Part shown: piece after piece, positions 16,077 to 57,488 of the stretch
Position numbering within the stretch: position 1 is the first letter of the stretch
How the letters are laid out: every line of letters begins with the position of its first letter
Virus record (IMG/VR): IMGVR_UViG_3300026521_000471
Coordinates: 58,518 to 122,517 of that record
Length of the DNA: 64,000 nucleotides
From: a virus
Direction: 5' to 3' (one strand)
Notes under the pieces: generated by a model
What the model saw: only the letters and a program-made list of their open reading frames with translations
The model's database searches: none
Told to the model about the DNA's origin: nothing
Position numbers and translations under genes: made by a program

Positions 16077-16091
16077 ATTTATTTTAATTCA

Positions 16092-16126
16092 AAGGGAGAG
16101 TAATCATACTCTCCTCACCCTCTTTT
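16092..16126 (+). terminator. Terminator after lipoprotein
   Basis: Hairpin GGAGAGTA-ATCA-TACTCTCC followed shortly by CTCTTTT, 20 bases after the stop codon. Confidence 0.75.
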
Positions 16127-16128
16127 AT

Positions 16129-16168
16129 GGAAGTGTAACCGAGAGTTCGAATCTCTCCACTTCCACCA
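16129..16168 (+). tRNA. Acceptor/T-arm minihelix with CCA
   Basis: Acceptor GGAAGTG pairs perfectly with CACTTCC. The intervening sequence is only TAACC, then a canonical T-arm GAGAG-TTCGAAT-CTCTC, then ACCA. D-arm and anticodon arm are wholly absent. It is either a deletion relic of a Ser/Leu-type tRNA or a minihelix RNA that CCA/EF-Tu/RNase P-type proteins could recognise. Confidence 0.65.
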
Positions 16169-16189
16169 TTCTAATTTTTTATCAAATCA

Positions 16190-16508
16190 ATTAATTTCTA
16201 AAATTATAAATAATGTATAATAATATTTAAAAGGGTTTTCGTGTACAAAAGCGATATGATAACTCTTACTAAATATGCTATGGAATTGGTTTAGTTGGGC
16301 TAAGGATAAAGGAAGGTTATAATGGAATACCATTATTATCAAATCTAATTGTAATAGCTCCTACGCAGATTTATTACAAAAATTTGCTGAGAAGATATCA
16401 CGAAAACAAACAACTATATTAAAATTGAAGATTGATTTGTTTAAAGTATCAGCCATCTTTGGTGAAGATACCCGTTGATAATTCTATACACCACATTAAG
16501 GAAAATAT
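16190..16508 (+). ncRNA. Structured leader upstream of the chemoreceptor gene
   Basis: GTATAAT at about 16215-16221 is followed by an RNA whose outer stem GTTTTCGTG/CACGAAAAC (16235-16243 with 16399-16407) encloses hairpins including ATAATGG-AATA-CCATTAT and TTGTAATA/TATTACAA. GTATC/GATAC follows near 16446-16472. It resembles the other long-stem RNAs and could control the MCP gene. Confidence 0.45.
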
Positions 16509-18695
16509 ATGAAATGGAATATTAATAAAAAATTAAAAGCCATGACAATCATTCCGAGTATAATAATGATATTTGGATTTGGTTATCTGGTTTATACCGA
16601 TTATAATGAATATCGAGATTTAGTTGTTTTAGAAAAAACAGTTAAAATCGATACACATATTAATCATTTAGTGCATTTCTTGCAACAAGAAAGAGGAGCT
16701 AGTGCTGGATACGTAGCATCCAATGGTAAAAAATTTAAAAATCAACTATCTGAAATTCGTAAAAAAACTGATACAAAATTCACTATCTTAGAGAAAGCAT
16801 TAAAAGGTAACAGAAATCATTTTACATTAGAAATGTCTAGAAAAATAGATGAGGCACTTCAAATGTATAACGAACTTTCCGTTATGCGAAGTAGTATTGA
16901 TAATTTAACAATAACCGTTCCAGAAACTGTTAAATACTTTAGTTCCATGAATGCAACCTTTTTAGATTTTATTAAACTAAGTAAAGATTTATCTAATGAT
17001 AATGAATTTTCAAAACAACTTTCAGTAATTACAGCTATTAGTGCTACAAAAGAATTAGCAGGTAAAGAAAGAGCTGTTATGACAAGTGTTTTTGCTAAAG
17101 ATAAATTTATAGATGGTTTCTATGCACAATTTAAAACTTTAGTAGCATTACAGAAAAGTTATATGGAAAGTTTTAGATTACTTGCAACTCCAACAGCAAT
17201 TAAAATTCTTAATGAAATATCTTCTACTTCTCCTTTTTTAGACGTTGAAGAAATGCGAAAGATTGCAATGGAACGAAATAAAGATGGGGCTTTTGGTGTT
17301 GACTCGGTAAGATGGTTTGATACTATGACTAAAAAAATAAATGGTATGGAACAAATCGAACATAAATTAGAAAATATTCTTCTAGATGAAATTGATAGTC
17401 AAATGAAATATTTATTGTCGATGGTTATTACAATGTTTATCCTTGCAGTCTTAATTACATCTAGTTTAACTTATGCAGGGTATAAATTTAATAAATTTTT
17501 AATCGATAGAGTGAACAAGATGAATATTATTTTAGAAGATTCTATTAATACTCATAGCTATGATGAACAATTATTAATTTCTAATGATGATGAATTATCA
17601 AAGATAGAAAATGCAATTAATAAAATGTTTGTGAGTTTAACTGAAGCTGCAGAGGCTAGAAGAATTTCGGATATTGAAATAAAGAAAAAAGCTGAAGAAA
17701 CTGCAAAACTATTAGCAAGAAATAATATGAATCTTAAACTGAATAAACTAATGAGTACGCATACAACCGATAACCTAAATGATATTAAAGATGGGCTGAG
17801 TGATGGGACTGAAGAATTAGAAAAAATTAATGAAATTAATGATAAAGCCCAAGATAATTTTAATTCTGTTATTGCGGCTAAAAATACTATGGTTACTACT
17901 TTAGAAACCGTTTCTGAAGGAATGAATTCTACAACAGAAAGAGCGGAACAATTAGAAGAATCTGTTAATGAAATTGCAAGCATTATTGGTTTAATCAAAG
18001 ATATTTCTGAACAAACAAACTTACTTGCACTTAATGCAGCTATTGAAGCAGCAAGAGCGGGTGAGCATGGACGAGGTTTTGCCGTGGTTGCTGATGAAGT
18101 TCGTAAACTAGCTGAGAGAACAGCTGTTGCAACTAAGAATGTAGAAGCGAGTATTAATATCGTTAAACAAAATACTTCTGAAATGAATGAAAGTACTGAA
18201 CAAATGACAGAAAGTATTAAAGATGCTCAAGAGGTATCTCATACTCTAGATGTAGAATTAGACACCTTAATATCTATCAATAGAAATAATACTGTTAGAA
18301 ATAATATGATTAGTGAAGATATTCTTGTTACCCTTACTAAATTAGAACATGTTATTTTTAAAATAATGGGTTATAATAGCGTTTTAGAAGAATGTACAAA
18401 ATGTGAACCTGTCACTCATGAAGCTTGTAGATTTGGACAATGGTATAAAACTGAGGGAAAAAATAGATATAGTAAAAATTCATCTTTTAGAAGTATCGAA
18501 ATACCGCATAAAGAAGTCCACGAAAATGTTAGAAAAGCCGTTGAATTAATAGGCAAAAAAGATGATGATACTATTATTCGATACTTTGAGATCGTAGAAG
18601 TAAATTCTAAAAAATTATTTGATCTTTTGACAAGAATAGTTAAAGAAGAAAATGATAAAATGGTTCTGGAGATTAATGATGGAAAAAATAAATAA
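16509..18695 (+). CDS. Methyl-accepting chemotaxis protein with NIT-like and CZB domains
   Basis: 728 residues, full receptor length. TM1 at about 12-32; a periplasmic helical domain with [10 protein letters not shown] near 56 typical of nitrate/nitrite-sensing (NIT) domains; TM2 about 297-320; HAMP-like linker; cytoplasmic coiled coil with the conserved signalling tip ([21 protein letters not shown]) near 500; and a C-terminal CZB zinc domain near 620-720 with [10 protein letters not shown] and later His residues. CZB domains sense zinc or hypochlorite in bacterial receptors. In a phage this is very unusual; it could bias CheA signalling and host swimming. All signalling motifs look intact, so it is probably functional. 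Confidence 0.9.
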
Positions 18696-18870
18696 ACCAC
18701 AGTTAGAAGATTTTAACTTATTAATTCAAAGCGAAGAGGGAATCAATGCCCTTTTCGATTATGTTCGACATTTAGATAAACAACACGCTCAAGATAAAAG
18801 AGAGATAAAATATTTAAACGATTATATTGAAAAGCTAGAAGCTACAATTAGTAAATTAAGAAAAAGATAA
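18676..18870 (+). CDS. Small coiled-coil protein (64 aa)
   Basis: The start at 18676 has GGAG at proper spacing and lies inside the end of the MCP gene, so it is translationally coupled to it. The product is helical and charged, ending in a Lys/Leu heptad helix. Coupling to a chemoreceptor suggests, but does not prove, a related role. Confidence 0.6.
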
Positions 18871-19307: not shown

Positions 19308-19325
19308 TATATTTTTTAAGGTTTT

Positions 19326-19348
19326 TTTAAGGTTTTTTTATGTATAAT
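19326..19348 (+). promoter_or_regulatory. Promoter for second structured-RNA block
   Basis: TTTAAG (19326-19331) and TATAAT (19343-19348). TTTTTTAAGG is repeated just upstream. Confidence 0.75.
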
Positions 19349-19354
19349 TTCCTA

Positions 19355-19560
19355 AGTAAGTTACTAATATTTAGTGTAATTCGGATATGATTCCATCTTA
19401 CTATAAAAATCAAAGTTTCACAAAGATCGGGCTTTGTAGGTTAATTAGTTTTGCCTTAGAATAGGTGATCTTTATCGTCAGTATATCCATTATATCGATA
19501 GTAGAGCGAAAGCGTAGAAGCTGATATAAAGGTGCGATGCCACACAATTAGAATAGTATT
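19355..19560 (+). ncRNA. Structured RNA
   Basis: No gene. Alternative stems ACAAAG/CTTTGT and AAAGATC/GATCTTT (about 19424 to 19475) cannot form together, suggesting a switching fold. Confidence 0.4.
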
Positions 19561-19661
19561 AAAGTTGCTACTACCTCAGGACGAGCAGTTTGATTCTGAT
19601 GGGTTCGAGTCCCATGATTGAGGAAGGAAGGTTAAGTTCGAGTCTTAACAGTAGCAACTTT
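19561..19661 (+). ncRNA. Long-stem RNA with tandem T-arm hairpins
   Basis: Perfect 12-bp outer stem (19561-19572 with 19650-19661). Inside, CCTCA/TGAGG closes a small module with T-arm ATGGG-TTCGAGT-CCCAT but no D-arm. A second T-arm-like hairpin, TTAAG-TTCGAGT-CTTAA, follows. Same two-T-arm design as 9699-9853. Confidence 0.55.
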
Positions 19662-19863
19662 TAATTTATTTAAGTTAAGTGTATTACTTAGTTTAATTAA
19701 ATTAAAACATCGGGAAATATTGGTATGGAATCCAATGGTGAATAAATTATTTTTTTCATTTCGACTAAGAACCAGTAGGAAGGTCACCCGAAATAGTTTA
19801 GCAGTTAAAGGTAGATTTGAAACTGTTAAGTAATATTAGCAATTGCAAGCCAATATGAAAATT
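19662..19863 (+). ncRNA. Non-coding interval with weak hairpins
   Basis: No gene and no strong long stem. ATTGG/CCAAT near 19719 and CAGTTAAAG/ACTGTTAAG-like pairs near 19802 suggest it belongs to the same structured transcript. Confidence 0.3.
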
Positions 19864-20030
19864 TAATGGATTAAATAATGAATTGAGGGCTTTCTTTGGG
19901 TTCTGCAGCGAAAAAGAAAGAACGGTTGCAAACACGTAAAAATGTTGGGAATAATATAATAGTATATTAAATATGCCGACTGGATACCGTCTCAGTATGA
20001 GCTTAACTCAATTCATTATTTAGTCTATTA
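19864..20030 (+). ncRNA. RNA element with 24-bp outer stem
   Basis: 19864-19887 pairs with 20007-20030; the only non-Watson-Crick pairs are two G-U. Internal hairpins include CTTTCTTT/AAAGAAAG and an ACGGT/ACCGT closing stem. No tRNA parts are certain. Confidence 0.55.
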
Positions 20031-20134
20031 TAAATAAATTAGTAGCTTCAAGAAATTAAGTTTGATAGTAAAAGCAAATTCTTTTTAGAATTGAGTGTTA
20101 GTGCAAGTCTAACCTAGTTGAATTTATAATAGAC
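20023..20134 (+). ncRNA. RNA element with 13-bp stem and T-arm-like hairpin
   Basis: 20023-20035 pairs perfectly with 20122-20134; its 5' strand overlaps the preceding element's 3' strand, so the two folds compete. Contains GTTAG-TGCAAGT-CTAAC, a T-arm with an altered loop like that at 15250. Confidence 0.5.
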
Positions 20135-20138
20135 ATTT

Positions 20139-20339
20139 TAATCATTTTATAAAGATTACCCTAACCGATAAGGAAATTAGTACTAGCCTTATTCGTACAG
20201 TTGTACTTATATAATAATTACCTATACGTAAAAAATTGATTTTGGTGATGGATAAGAATTATAATACTAAAGAACCGTTTGAACCAATAATCAGAAGAAC
20301 TGTCTCTCTGAGCAATGGGTAATCTTTATAAGGTGATTA
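20139..20339 (+). ncRNA. RNA element with 23-bp outer stem
   Basis: 20139-20161 pairs with 20317-20339; the only deviations are two adjacent G-U pairs. Internal hairpins ATAAGG/CCTTAT and GTAC-AGTT-GTAC. Function unknown. Confidence 0.55.
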
Positions 20340-20566
20340 GACTCCATAATTTTTCGTTTTTAGATTACCTCCGAAGGGGTTTAAAAAATTATGCCTTTTC
20401 ACCGGTTTTAAATACCATTGGCAGTCGGAGATTGATAAAAAAGTATTGCTTTTTTATTAAGGTTTGTAAGTGAACTAATCAGACGTAGAATTTAAGAGTA
20501 AGATAATTTCAAGCTATTAAATGACAACCATAAAATTAAGTGAGTTTTTGGTCTCACTTAAAAATA
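20340..20566 (+). ncRNA. Structured tail of second non-coding block
   Basis: CATAATTTTT/AAAAATTATG encloses a CCTC-CGAA-GGGG hairpin. At the end AAGTGAG/CTCACTT (about 20538-20559) could terminate or process the transcript. No gene. Confidence 0.4.
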
Positions 20567-20588
20567 CTTTTTGACTTTATTGTATAAT
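20567..20588 (+). promoter_or_regulatory. Promoter for spike-tip operon
   Basis: T-rich run then GTATAAT (20583-20588), 31 bases before start 20619. Confidence 0.65.
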
Positions 20589-20618
20589 AATATATAATCT
20601 AATAATAAAGGAATATAT

Positions 20619-21365
20619 ATGTCATATGATTGGTCTAAATACTCTGCATCATCCGATTCTAAAACTCTTAATAGTACAAATCAACCAACACTTAAAGAAC
20701 TTCGAGAAGCATTAATACGACCTTTAGGCGAAAGTATTAATGAAGCAATTGAAGAACATGTATCTACTGCAATGGCAAAAATCATTACAGGTAATAATAA
20801 CGCTGACTCAGCTTTAAGTAACTCTTTGAATAATCAATTAAAAGTTAATGAATCATCATTAGAAAATATATTAAAAAATAATGAAATATCATTAGAAGCA
20901 CGAATTAAAAAAACCACAGAAATTATTACTGGTATATTAGTAGGAATATATGATGAAGATATAATAGAAGATACCTTAAAATCTATCGATATTAATAACT
21001 TAACATCAATTAATGATAATTGGGATGGTTTAGAAAAGGGTGCGTCATTTATGAAAAATGACATAAAAAGAAATTCTAATTTTACCATGGATAATGGGAC
21101 GGAACATAATCCAGTAGATCCATTGATTGAATTAACAAGAGCCGTAAAAAGTCTAGTTGTGCAACATACTTGGATGTCAGTAAAATCTGATAAACAGGCT
21201 AGCAATATGGGTGTTGCTGTAGATGGTGTTGTTTCTGAAGCCTTTTACAATGATGCAAAAGCCGCAAATAGAAAAGTAGCAGAAGATACAGTTCATCAGA
21301 TTTTAAATTTAGATGGTACACATGATGATGACGGAATTTATCCAAATAATCAGGGATTTGAATAA
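20619..21365 (+). CDS. Unknown protein, probable tail/baseplate neighbour
   Basis: 248 residues, soluble, no signal. Overlaps the PAAR gene by one base, so likely co-produced with the spike tip. Ser/Asn-rich; a helical region about 90-130 and a C-terminal region with His/Asp-rich motifs near 235. Not recognised. Confidence 0.65.
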   Translation: MSYDWSKYSASSDSKTLNSTNQPTLKELREALIRPLGESINEAIEEHVSTAMAKIITGNNNADSALSNSLNNQLKVNESSLENILKNNEISLEARIKKTTEIITGILVGIYDEDIIEDTLKSIDINNLTSINDNWDGLEKGASFMKNDIKRNSNFTMDNGTEHNPVDPLIELTRAVKSLVVQHTWMSVKSDKQASNMGVAVDGVVSEAFYNDAKAANRKVAEDTVHQILNLDGTHDDDGIYPNNQGFE

Positions 21366-35846: not shown

Positions 35847-37697
35847 ATGAGAACAAACTATAATTTAGAAATTAGAAAAAATTATATAGATAAGGAAGTT
35901 ACGGTTTCGGGGTGGGTTAATTCAATCCGTGACCATGGTGGCGTTTACTTTATTGATTTAAGAGATACTTCCGGTATTGTACAAATTGTTGCAAATCCAA
36001 CTTCTTTAACAGAAGATGAATATGAAAAGTATCACGCTTTAAGAGATGAGTGGGTAATTGAAGTTACTGGTAAAGTTAGACTTCGTGGAGAAGGTCTTGA
36101 AAATCCAAAATTATTAACTGGTGAAATTGAAATTGTTGCAGAAGATTTAAAAATTCTAAGTAAAGCAAAAACATTACCGTTCCAACCTGGAGACGAATCT
36201 GTTAATGATGATTTAAAGCTTAAATACAGATATTTGGATATGAGAGATAACAAACTGCAGGATACTCTTACTAAAAGAAGTGATATGGCGTTTAATATCA
36301 GAGTTGCTCTGCATAACGAATTAGATTATGCGGAAATCGAAACTCCAATCTTAATGAAGTCATCTGAAGGTGGAGCAGAAGAAGTATATGCCACTTCTAA
36401 ACTATTTCCTGGAGAATTCTATTCACTGCCACAATCACCACAATTATATAAACAGTTACTTATGATTGGTGGGAGAGAAAAGTATTATTCATTTGCAAAA
36501 TGCTTTAGAGCTGAAAGTGCTCGTAAAGATAGAAACATCGAATTCACACAAATAGATATGGAACGATCTTTTTCAGATAGAAATGGTATTTTAAAAGATG
36601 TTACTAAAGTTTTAACTGCAGCTTTTGAAACAACCAATGTCGATTTTGATAAAATTAATAATGATGTTAGAGAAACAGTCCGGTGGCTTGATAGTATTAG
36701 TATTGAAGGTGAAATTGATTCTTCAGCTGATATTTTAATTCCTATGATCAAATACAATGACGCATTAAACTACTTCGGTAGTGATAAGCCGGATTTACGT
36801 TTCAAAATGTCATTGATTGAAGCTAAGAAACTTTTTATTAATACTGATTTTACGGTTTTTAAAGATATTGCTAAAAAGGATAATACAGTTGTTAAAGCTT
36901 TAGTGGCTAAAAATGCAGACTATCCAGACAAACTATCTAAAAAGAAAATTAAAGATTTAGAAAAATTTGTTAGTGAATTTGGAGCTAAAGGTTTAGCTTA
37001 TTTTCAAATGAAAGAAGAAGGCCTAAAAGGTCCTTTAACTAAATTTCTAAAACAAGTGGATTTAGATTTAATCCAAATTGAATGTGAATTAGAAGTAGGT
37101 GATATTGTTTTCTTTGGAGCAGGTGATAAAGATACCGTTTTAGATTACATGGGTCGACTAAGAATTAAAATAGCAGAAGAGTTAAATTTAATTAATGATA
37201 AATTCATACCATTATTTGTTACTGATTTTCCTATGTTTGAAAAAGGTAAAGACGGCACAATTAAAGCTATGCACCATCCATTTACAGCACCTATAATGGA
37301 ATCTTATACAAATTATTTAAATGATGAATGTGACCTTACAGAAATTCTTACTGATAGTTATGATCTTGTTTTAAATGGTGTGGAATTAGGTGGTGGTTCA
37401 GTAAGAATTTATGATGAAGAGTTACAAGAAAATATATTTAAGATTATGGGGCTTACTGATGAGGAAATAAAAGAAAAATTTGGTTTCTTTACAGAGGCTT
37501 TACAGTATGGTACTCCGCCACATTGTGGATTTGCTTTTGGTTTTGATAGATTAGTTTCACTATTATTAAAAAAAGAAACTATTAGAGAAGTAATAGCATT
37601 TCCTAAAAATCAAAGTGGTCTATGTCCTATGTCTGAATCACCAAATAAACCGGATGTTAATCAATTAAAAGAATTAGGTTTAAGAATAAAATCTTAA
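35847..37697 (+). CDS. aspS: Aspartyl-tRNA synthetase
   Basis: 616 residues, the normal length of a bacterial AspRS. The N-terminal OB fold (about 1-105) starts R-K-N-Y-I-D-K-E-V-T-V-S-G-W-V. Class II motif 2 is visible as FRAESARKDRNIEFTQIDME (about 215-234); the usual F-R-D-E-D-x-R is changed to F-R-A-E-S-A-R. SLPQSPQLYKQLLM lies before it. A bacterial GAD insertion (about 280-400) and motif 3 (FGFDRLVSLL near 565) are present. It would charge the two phage tRNA-Asp genes (24096, 24726). The gene is intact; a full synthetase is rare in phages. Confidence 0.93.
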   Translation: MRTNYNLEIRKNYIDKEVTVSGWVNSIRDHGGVYFIDLRDTSGIVQIVANPTSLTEDEYEKYHALRDEWVIEVTGKVRLRGEGLENPKLLTGEIEIVAEDLKILSKAKTLPFQPGDESVNDDLKLKYRYLDMRDNKLQDTLTKRSDMAFNIRVALHNELDYAEIETPILMKSSEGGAEEVYATSKLFPGEFYSLPQSPQLYKQLLMIGGREKYYSFAKCFRAESARKDRNIEFTQIDMERSFSDRNGILKDVTKVLTAAFETTNVDFDKINNDVRETVRWLDSISIEGEIDSSADILIPMIKYNDALNYFGSDKPDLRFKMSLIEAKKLFINTDFTVFKDIAKKDNTVVKALVAKNADYPDKLSKKKIKDLEKFVSEFGAKGLAYFQMKEEGLKGPLTKFLKQVDLDLIQIECELEVGDIVFFGAGDKDTVLDYMGRLRIKIAEELNLINDKFIPLFVTDFPMFEKGKDGTIKAMHHPFTAPIMESYTNYLNDECDLTEILTDSYDLVLNGVELGGGSVRIYDEELQENIFKIMGLTDEEIKEKFGFFTEALQYGTPPHCGFAFGFDRLVSLLLKKETIREVIAFPKNQSGLCPMSESPNKPDVNQLKELGLRIKS

Positions 37698-56123: not shown

Positions 56124-57488
56124 ATGATTAATTTTAAAACACTTCAAACTGATTTCTATCAGATTTCAATGGCTTTCGCTTATGTACTTTCAAATAAAGC
56201 AAATGTAACAACTGGTTTTGAGGGCTTTGTAAGAAATGTAAAAGCGGCTGTAAACCCAAACAGAGATTTTTATATCTTTAGTGGAGAGCAGGAAGTAAAA
56301 GACTACATCGAAACTGTAAAAAAAGAAATCAGAGACCCACAATTCATAGAAACTTTTATTGAGCTTATAGAACCTAAAATAACTGCTAAGAATAAAGAGG
56401 ATCTTATTCAAGAATTTAGAGAAAAATGGAAAACTCTTGATTTTGATTTTGAGTATAACGTAGTTGCAGAAGGCTCTATTGTATTTCCTTTTGTACCTGT
56501 TTTTCAATATAAAGGACCTAAAATTTGGGGGCAACTTATTGAAACTTATGTTACAAATATTTACAACGGTAAAACAGCATTTGCTACTCTTAAAAAACTT
56601 AAAGAAGAAGATAAAGCATTTGTAACAGATAGTGAATTTATTTTCATTAAAGGTATTATGGAAAATAATCCTTTTGCTATAAATGAATACACTAAAAATC
56701 TTGAGAGAACTGCTGAGGAATTTAGAAAGTCAACAGATAAAATCCTTCTTGAAGCAGCATTTAGAAGAGCACCAACAAAAATTATAGCAGATGTAGCATC
56801 TAATGTAGCTATTAGTAAAGGTTGGGATGGTACTTCAAATGTTTCAAATGTTCTTAATGGTATGATTACAGCTGATAAAGTTGGTGGTACAATGGCTCAT
56901 GCTTTTGTAATGAGTTTTGAAAATGAAAGAGATGCCTTTAAAGCATGGGATAGAATCTTTCCTGGAACAACAATGCTTATCGATACTTATGACGTTGAAA
57001 ATGCAGCAAAAATGATTAAAGAGATGGTTGATAACGGTGAGATAACTAAACCGAACGATCTTAGAATTGATAGTGACCCTATTGATGATTACTGTAAACT
57101 CGTTTACGATATTTTTGATAATGCTATTGGTATCTTTGTAAGTGGCGATATGGACACAGAAAAATTTGAAATCCTAGATGGACAAAATATTCCATATAGT
57201 AAAGCTATGGCTGGAACAAAATATGTTTATGAAAACTATATCGCATCAAAACTTAATAGTGGTTTTGTTTACAAAATCGTAGAGTACATTAATGAGGATG
57301 GGAAAACTATTAGACCTGAGAAAAAAGCAAATGGGAAATCAAATTACCCTGGACTTAAAATGGTAAGTTATGATGAGTTTAGAAATATTCTTACTATTTG
57401 GAATAATACAGATAAAGGACAGTTTGGGTTTTCAGGAATGAGTAAAATCAAACCAGATTCAAAAGTTGAATTCAAAACTTCTTCATAA
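56124..57488 (+). CDS. pncB: Nicotinate phosphoribosyltransferase
   Basis: 454 residues. TDFYQISM near 10, EGFVRN near 33, GTMAHAFVMSFENERDAF (about 256-273) with the conserved His, a MLIDTYD segment near 286 and L-R-I-D-S-D near 315 match the nicotinate phosphoribosyltransferase family rather than NAMPT. It makes nicotinate mononucleotide in NAD+ salvage. Strong ribosome site (AAAGGAG) and codon choice richer in CTT/GGT than its neighbours suggest recent host origin. Pairs functionally with the NMNAT-like domain at 26467. Confidence 0.87.
   Translation: MINFKTLQTDFYQISMAFAYVLSNKANVTTGFEGFVRNVKAAVNPNRDFYIFSGEQEVKDYIETVKKEIRDPQFIETFIELIEPKITAKNKEDLIQEFREKWKTLDFDFEYNVVAEGSIVFPFVPVFQYKGPKIWGQLIETYVTNIYNGKTAFATLKKLKEEDKAFVTDSEFIFIKGIMENNPFAINEYTKNLERTAEEFRKSTDKILLEAAFRRAPTKIIADVASNVAISKGWDGTSNVSNVLNGMITADKVGGTMAHAFVMSFENERDAFKAWDRIFPGTTMLIDTYDVENAAKMIKEMVDNGEITKPNDLRIDSDPIDDYCKLVYDIFDNAIGIFVSGDMDTEKFEILDGQNIPYSKAMAGTKYVYENYIASKLNSGFVYKIVEYINEDGKTIRPEKKANGKSNYPGLKMVSYDEFRNILTIWNNTDKGQFGFSGMSKIKPDSKVEFKTSS

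Follow-up and report, generated by a model that had tools for sequence, protein, structure and literature searches.

A large-phage gene encoding a chemoreceptor with a NIT sensor and a CZB zinc-binding domain

Does the reading frame at 16509-18695 encode an intact chemoreceptor, does it belong to a phage, and what might a phage do with such a protein? These questions concern a window of 64,000 nt, comprising positions 58,518-122,517 of a 224,467-bp IMG/VR virus record. The initial annotation described a full-length, intact methyl-accepting chemotaxis protein (MCP) with a sensor, two transmembrane (TM) segments, a signalling tip and a CZB domain, and the ORF, Pfam and hydropathy results agree with that description. 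An ORF check of the 64-kb window gave 728 codons on the plus strand without an internal stop, and an SD sequence, AAGGA, lies at 16498-16502, 6 nt 5' of the ATG. We confirm an intact chemoreceptor with the order TM1–NIT–TM2–HAMP-like–MCP signalling hairpin–CZB, whose parts are as follows.

16509-18695, plus strand: chemoreceptor of the methyl-accepting chemotaxis protein type, 728 aa (ORF, Pfam, model and PDB matches)
16533-16598, plus strand: TM1, residues about 9-30 (hydropathy peak; helix 5-70 in the model)
16668-17372, plus strand: NIT nitrate/nitrite-type sensor domain, residues 54-288, with conserved R62, E187/R188 and R250 (Pfam, alignment, PDB matches)
17397-17483, plus strand: TM2, residues about 297-325 (hydropathy peak)
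17487-17663, plus strand: HAMP-like helix-loop-helix, residues about 327-385 (model and inference, with no Pfam call)
17919-18311, plus strand: MCP signalling domain, residues 471-601, with its tip at 497-538 (Pfam, alignment)
18348-18542, plus strand: CZB zinc-binding domain, residues 614-678, with ligands H614, C640, H667 and H671 (Pfam, alignment)

All three Pfam matches exceeded their curated cut-offs (NIT, 54-288, E 1.7e-52, 179.6 bits vs 24.9; MCPsignal, 471-601, E 4e-33, 115 bits vs 34.6; CZB, 614-678, E 6e-13). Hydropathy places the NIT domain between TM1 and TM2, the topology of a transmembrane sensor, with the HAMP region recognized by the model only. The AlphaFold model (mean pLDDT 82.6, about 95 in NIT) displays the NIT helices, a helix-loop-helix at the position expected of HAMP and a long signalling helix. 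Its top PDB matches were NasR (4akk, E 4e-9) and chemoreceptor signalling domains, and a BFVD fold search returned coiled-coil noise only. The protein also matches PHROG 8572, which is annotated 'unknown function'. Methylation sites and a CheR-B docking pentapeptide are found in many chemoreceptors, though not in all. A consensus regular expression found no methylation site in either this receptor or the phage relative described below, and the strict motif was absent from the checked cellular relatives too; an NWETF-like C-terminal pentapeptide was likewise absent from the phage receptor and from the checked cellular relatives. Because the expression detected no canonical motif of this kind, adaptation of the phage receptor is uncertain.

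We asked whether the gene is part of the phage genome rather than a host flank. The record carries rIIA, a T4-type topoisomerase II, an Rnl1-type RNA-ligase/tail-fibre catalyst and a DnaB-type helicase; 23 tRNAs lie in the window, and a PAAR-like protein is encoded 2.7 kb 3' of the receptor gene (26.9 bits, Pfam cut-off 27). HMM searches of the record found no terminase and no Gp23-type major capsid protein (PF07068), the marker by which T4-like membership was judged, with other T4-type genes present; the record is therefore either partial or divergent in its virion genes. GC3 of the receptor gene was 0.160, compared to a phage mean of 0.166. The strongest evidence for phage ownership is a sister gene on a second contig, IMGVR_UViG_3300026488_000025 (79.7 kb; locus L019), whose product is full length, has the same domains and is 47% identical over residues 4-718. 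A distance of 1.8 kb separates this gene from that of a Gp23-type major capsid protein, and its record contains three Gp23 matches in total; 20 tRNAs are nearby, and the flanking proteins gave no matches to those of the window's phage. An IMG/VR scan with the single receptor protein recovered no relatives; the sister was obtained by alignment-based scans, and two further scans with patterns from the phage pair recovered only its contig again. The NIT–CZB type is thus found in one other contig among the 2.9 million of IMG/VR, and the earlier description of the gene as very rare holds for this type but not for phage chemoreceptors at large, of which others exist (see below). A tblastn search of INPHARED gave three weak matches only, all of them to bacterial contigs labelled phage: the Acinetobacter contig was rejected because it carries cheA/cheW and host genes, while the Salmonella contig was judged bacterial from its name and size.

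Identical host copies and adjoining host chromosome were looked for and not found. The best cellular proteins, sought in 397 Campylobacterota genomes and 228 nearest-family genomes, share the architecture at 34-39% identity over the full length. Misassembly or a host flank was rejected on the basis of this 39% ceiling, the phage-like GC3 and a sister gene that sits near a capsid gene amid unrelated flanks. Taken together, the hallmark genes, the matching codon composition, the capsid-adjacent sister and the phage-only clade described next support the assignment of the receptor gene to the phage genome, as the initial annotation had it.

The two phage receptors grouped together in each of two trees, with 100/100 support and a long shared stem, and fell outside 24 cellular receptors whose own clade was supported at 99-100. 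A long-branch warning applies to the second tree; the first, which includes more distant rows, agrees with it. The phylum of a Desulfobulbaceae match was considered as donor, and 0 of its 297 genomes gave a match at E <= 1e-75. The EF-Tu encoded by the phage is 78-82% identical to EF-Tu of Campylobacterota and 66-71% identical to that of other phyla, with Sulfurimonas indica highest, and by the same protein the genomes with the nearest receptors fall together with S. indica (89-98%). The receptor tree and the phage EF-Tu are independent lines, and both bear out the Campylobacterota kinship suggested earlier; the host is probably a member of the Campylobacterota, and probably Sulfurimonas-like. 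As a separate observation, the EF-Tu gene (L004:2110-3682, at about 42.1-43.7 kb of the record) is interrupted, its N-terminal exon, MAKEKFVRGEKPHVNVGTVGH, being split from VDHGKTTLT... by about 360 nt with stops. This interruption is probably a self-splicing intron in the P-loop; an Rfam search of it gave no gathering-level match.

The surroundings of the receptor gene had been described as a dedicated structured leader on one side and a coupled coiled-coil gene on the other. Three features are pertinent.

16094-16115, no strand assigned: terminator-like hairpin after the upstream lipoprotein-like gene, its T-rich tail listed on the minus strand only
about 16129-16170, plus strand: tRNA-like acceptor/T-arm remnant, 94% identical over 33 nt to the 3' end of the tRNA-Ser at 11876-11907
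18679-18870, plus strand: coiled-coil ORF of 64 aa, overlapping the receptor gene by 17 nt, with the SD sequence GGAG upstream

Although the leader at 16077-16508 is structured overall (z -3.8), the hairpin and the tRNA-Ser remnant explain most of that structure, and the remaining 280-340 nt are weak (z about -2); we therefore rejected a dedicated riboregulator. A T4-type late-promoter motif, TATAAATA, occurs at 16205, but was set aside as evidence because its upstream enrichment was only modest (rank 3 of 56 permutations). The claim of coupling fared better: given the 17-nt overlap and the SD sequence, translational coupling of the coiled-coil ORF to the receptor gene is plausible, although the sister locus has no counterpart of this ORF. 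Exact-pattern searches of IMG/VR for relatives of the neighbouring gene at 20619, the topoisomerase II and the aspartyl-tRNA synthetase found none. The 1.3 kb at 19308-20618 of the window hold no convincing gene, and show several long inverted repeats and tRNA-like arms, and may possibly represent an undescribed large RNA.

Other features of the phage are recorded here in their own right. A GOLLD-like giant RNA with a tRNA-like part inside matched window positions 10767-11268 (110.7 bits, E 8e-29, below the gathering score of 150), and a tmRNA is encoded at L007:19437-19818 on the minus strand (115 bits). The aspartyl-tRNA synthetase at window 35847-37697 is about 40% identical to the nearest INPHARED records; together with the tRNAs, EF-Tu, tmRNA and a GroEL segment, it marks the phage as translation-rich. 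Five paralogues of phrog_10773, of unknown function, are present in the phage (window 39351-40904, 42063-43412 and 53523-54833; L005:4151-6805). A Sir2 sirtuin (L009:8233-9078), a NAPRTase-like protein (window 56124-57488) and DnaJ (L002:1162-1980) are also encoded.

We next consider what the receptor might sense. The zinc ligands H614, C640, H667 and H671 (3His/1Cys) were identical in 34 of 34 aligned sequences, as were E187, R188 and R250 of the NIT domain, while R62 was conserved in 33, with one gap. R250 aligns with R236 of NasR, which we take to be another residue of the pocket. E187 and R188 align with E175 and R176 of NasR, both predicted nitrate-pocket residues (PMC7496416), and these residues make the NIT domain a candidate nitrate/nitrite binder. 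NasR (PDB 4AKK) shares the NIT fold but, unlike the phage receptor, is soluble and works as an antiterminator through an ANTAR output. H. pylori TlpD and Salmonella McpA likewise possess a CZB domain with the 3His/1Cys zinc motif, and are reported to mediate HOCl/redox taxis (PMC6715182, PMC13370339); the zinc cysteine is reported to be what lets CZB receptors sense HOCl/redox (PMC6715182, PMC8262984, PMC13370339). Whereas TlpD is cytosolic and lacks a periplasmic NIT domain, the phage receptor joins CZB to one. The closest systems are the NIT-MCP-CZB receptors of Sulfurimonas-like Campylobacterota (G336, G502, G191 and others), which have the same domain order, length and ligand residues and a near-identical tip, but which are cellular and stand apart from the long-stemmed phage pair. 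As a protein, the receptor follows a cellular architecture that is already known and is not exceptional within it; what is unusual is that phages own it.

The pattern of conservation bears on how such a receptor would act. When the two phage receptors are aligned with each other, identity reaches 84% in the signalling core (471-572), compared to 41% in NIT, 33% in TM2/HAMP, 42-54% in the linker and return arm, and 41% in CZB; in a cellular pair compared the same way, the core is 84% identical and other regions 46-66%. Of the about 42 residues of the tip (497-538), a single one departs from Sulfurimonas-like receptors, a conservative change in which E501 replaces D. No indels between HAMP and CZB were seen in the alignment of the phage receptor with its nearest cellular receptors, as would be needed for joining mixed host arrays. 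As read from the alignments, these comparisons demonstrate purifying constraint on the tip and a CheA/CheW-contacting core kept by selection.

Besides its single MCP, the record encodes neither CheA nor CheW, and no CheW-family domain was detected; the phage receptor must therefore use the CheA/CheW of its host. In the mechanism we propose, the phage would make a membrane receptor during infection of a motile, Sulfurimonas-like member of the Campylobacterota; its periplasmic NIT domain would sense nitrate/nitrite or a similar anion, its cytoplasmic CZB domain would sense redox/Zn, and the conserved hairpin tip would insert it into the existing CheA-CheW arrays. Swimming of the infected cell would then follow the input of the phage receptor, for example towards an electron acceptor powering replication. 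We infer that the gene is expressed, that its product enters the array and that the phage benefits, and likewise the ligand and the direction of taxis. Redirected swimming towards oxidants or nitrate, as first suggested for this gene, fits the anatomy predicted from its sequence. A lytic infection could be over too soon for taxis to make a difference, which counts against a behavioural role. On balance, we consider it reasonably probable that this is a virus-owned chemoreceptor serving as a behavioural auxiliary gene, which adds nitrate/nitrite and redox/Zn input to the host array.

An alternative is that the receptor jams the array by displacing or locking host receptors, causing infected cells to stop or to ignore their own cues; the ligand would then matter little, and the benefit would be saved energy or cells kept clustered. 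The absence of any other chemotaxis gene from the phage agrees with such a role, as does the restriction of strong conservation between the phage copies to the CheA/CheW-contacting core (84% vs 33-54% elsewhere). However, the cellular pair displays a similar contrast between core and sensor, and both phages have kept the NIT pocket residues together with all four zinc ligands, which jamming would not need; we regard this alternative as unlikely. Still less likely is an output other than swimming, exerted through a host chemosensory kinase (e.g. on biofilm, pili or surface attachment) or in redox/Zn homeostasis: c-di-GMP enzymes, too, are regulated by CZB domains (PMC8262984), but the nearly unchanged tip is that of the host's standard receptor type. 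Finally, phages are known to pick up host genes, but recently captured cargo without a selected role, or misassembled chromosome, is highly improbable given the distant cellular matches, the 47% identical, capsid-adjacent sister on a shared long stem, the GC3 and the intact ORF.

If the gene is a behavioural auxiliary gene of the phage, it may not be alone. The cultured Vibrio jumbo phage vB_VmeM-Yong XC31 (MK308674.1, L252:3233-5065) encodes QAX96201.1, a 'hypothetical protein' that proved to be a dCache-HAMP-MCPsignal chemoreceptor, and another IMG/VR phage contig (L030:8804-10744) encodes a Cache_3-MCP chemoreceptor between tail-fibre, thymidylate synthase and helicase genes. Each of these two has one MCP and no CheW. 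QAX96201.1 resembles the receptor described here in being a single full-length phage MCP, but differs in its sensor, its lack of CZB and its separate origin. A search of the open-access literature brought up no description of a phage chemoreceptor; closest is a study of a glacier-ice vOTU whose phage motA/motB, stator genes rather than a receptor, were proposed to influence host chemotaxis (PMC8290583). We tentatively suggest, at somewhat less than even confidence, that large phages keep and diversify their own chemoreceptor lineages, which would steer infected cells through redox/electron-acceptor gradients, with at least three origins: the NIT–CZB type in phages of Campylobacterota and the Cache types in the Vibrio jumbo phage and the L030 contig.

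What is known of auxiliary phage genes concerns metabolism for the most part. Should an intact phage receptor plug into the host array, phages would be able to rewrite where infected cells swim. With two sister genes at hand, and with the ligand residues and the zinc cysteine defined, the idea can be tested directly by expressing one gene.
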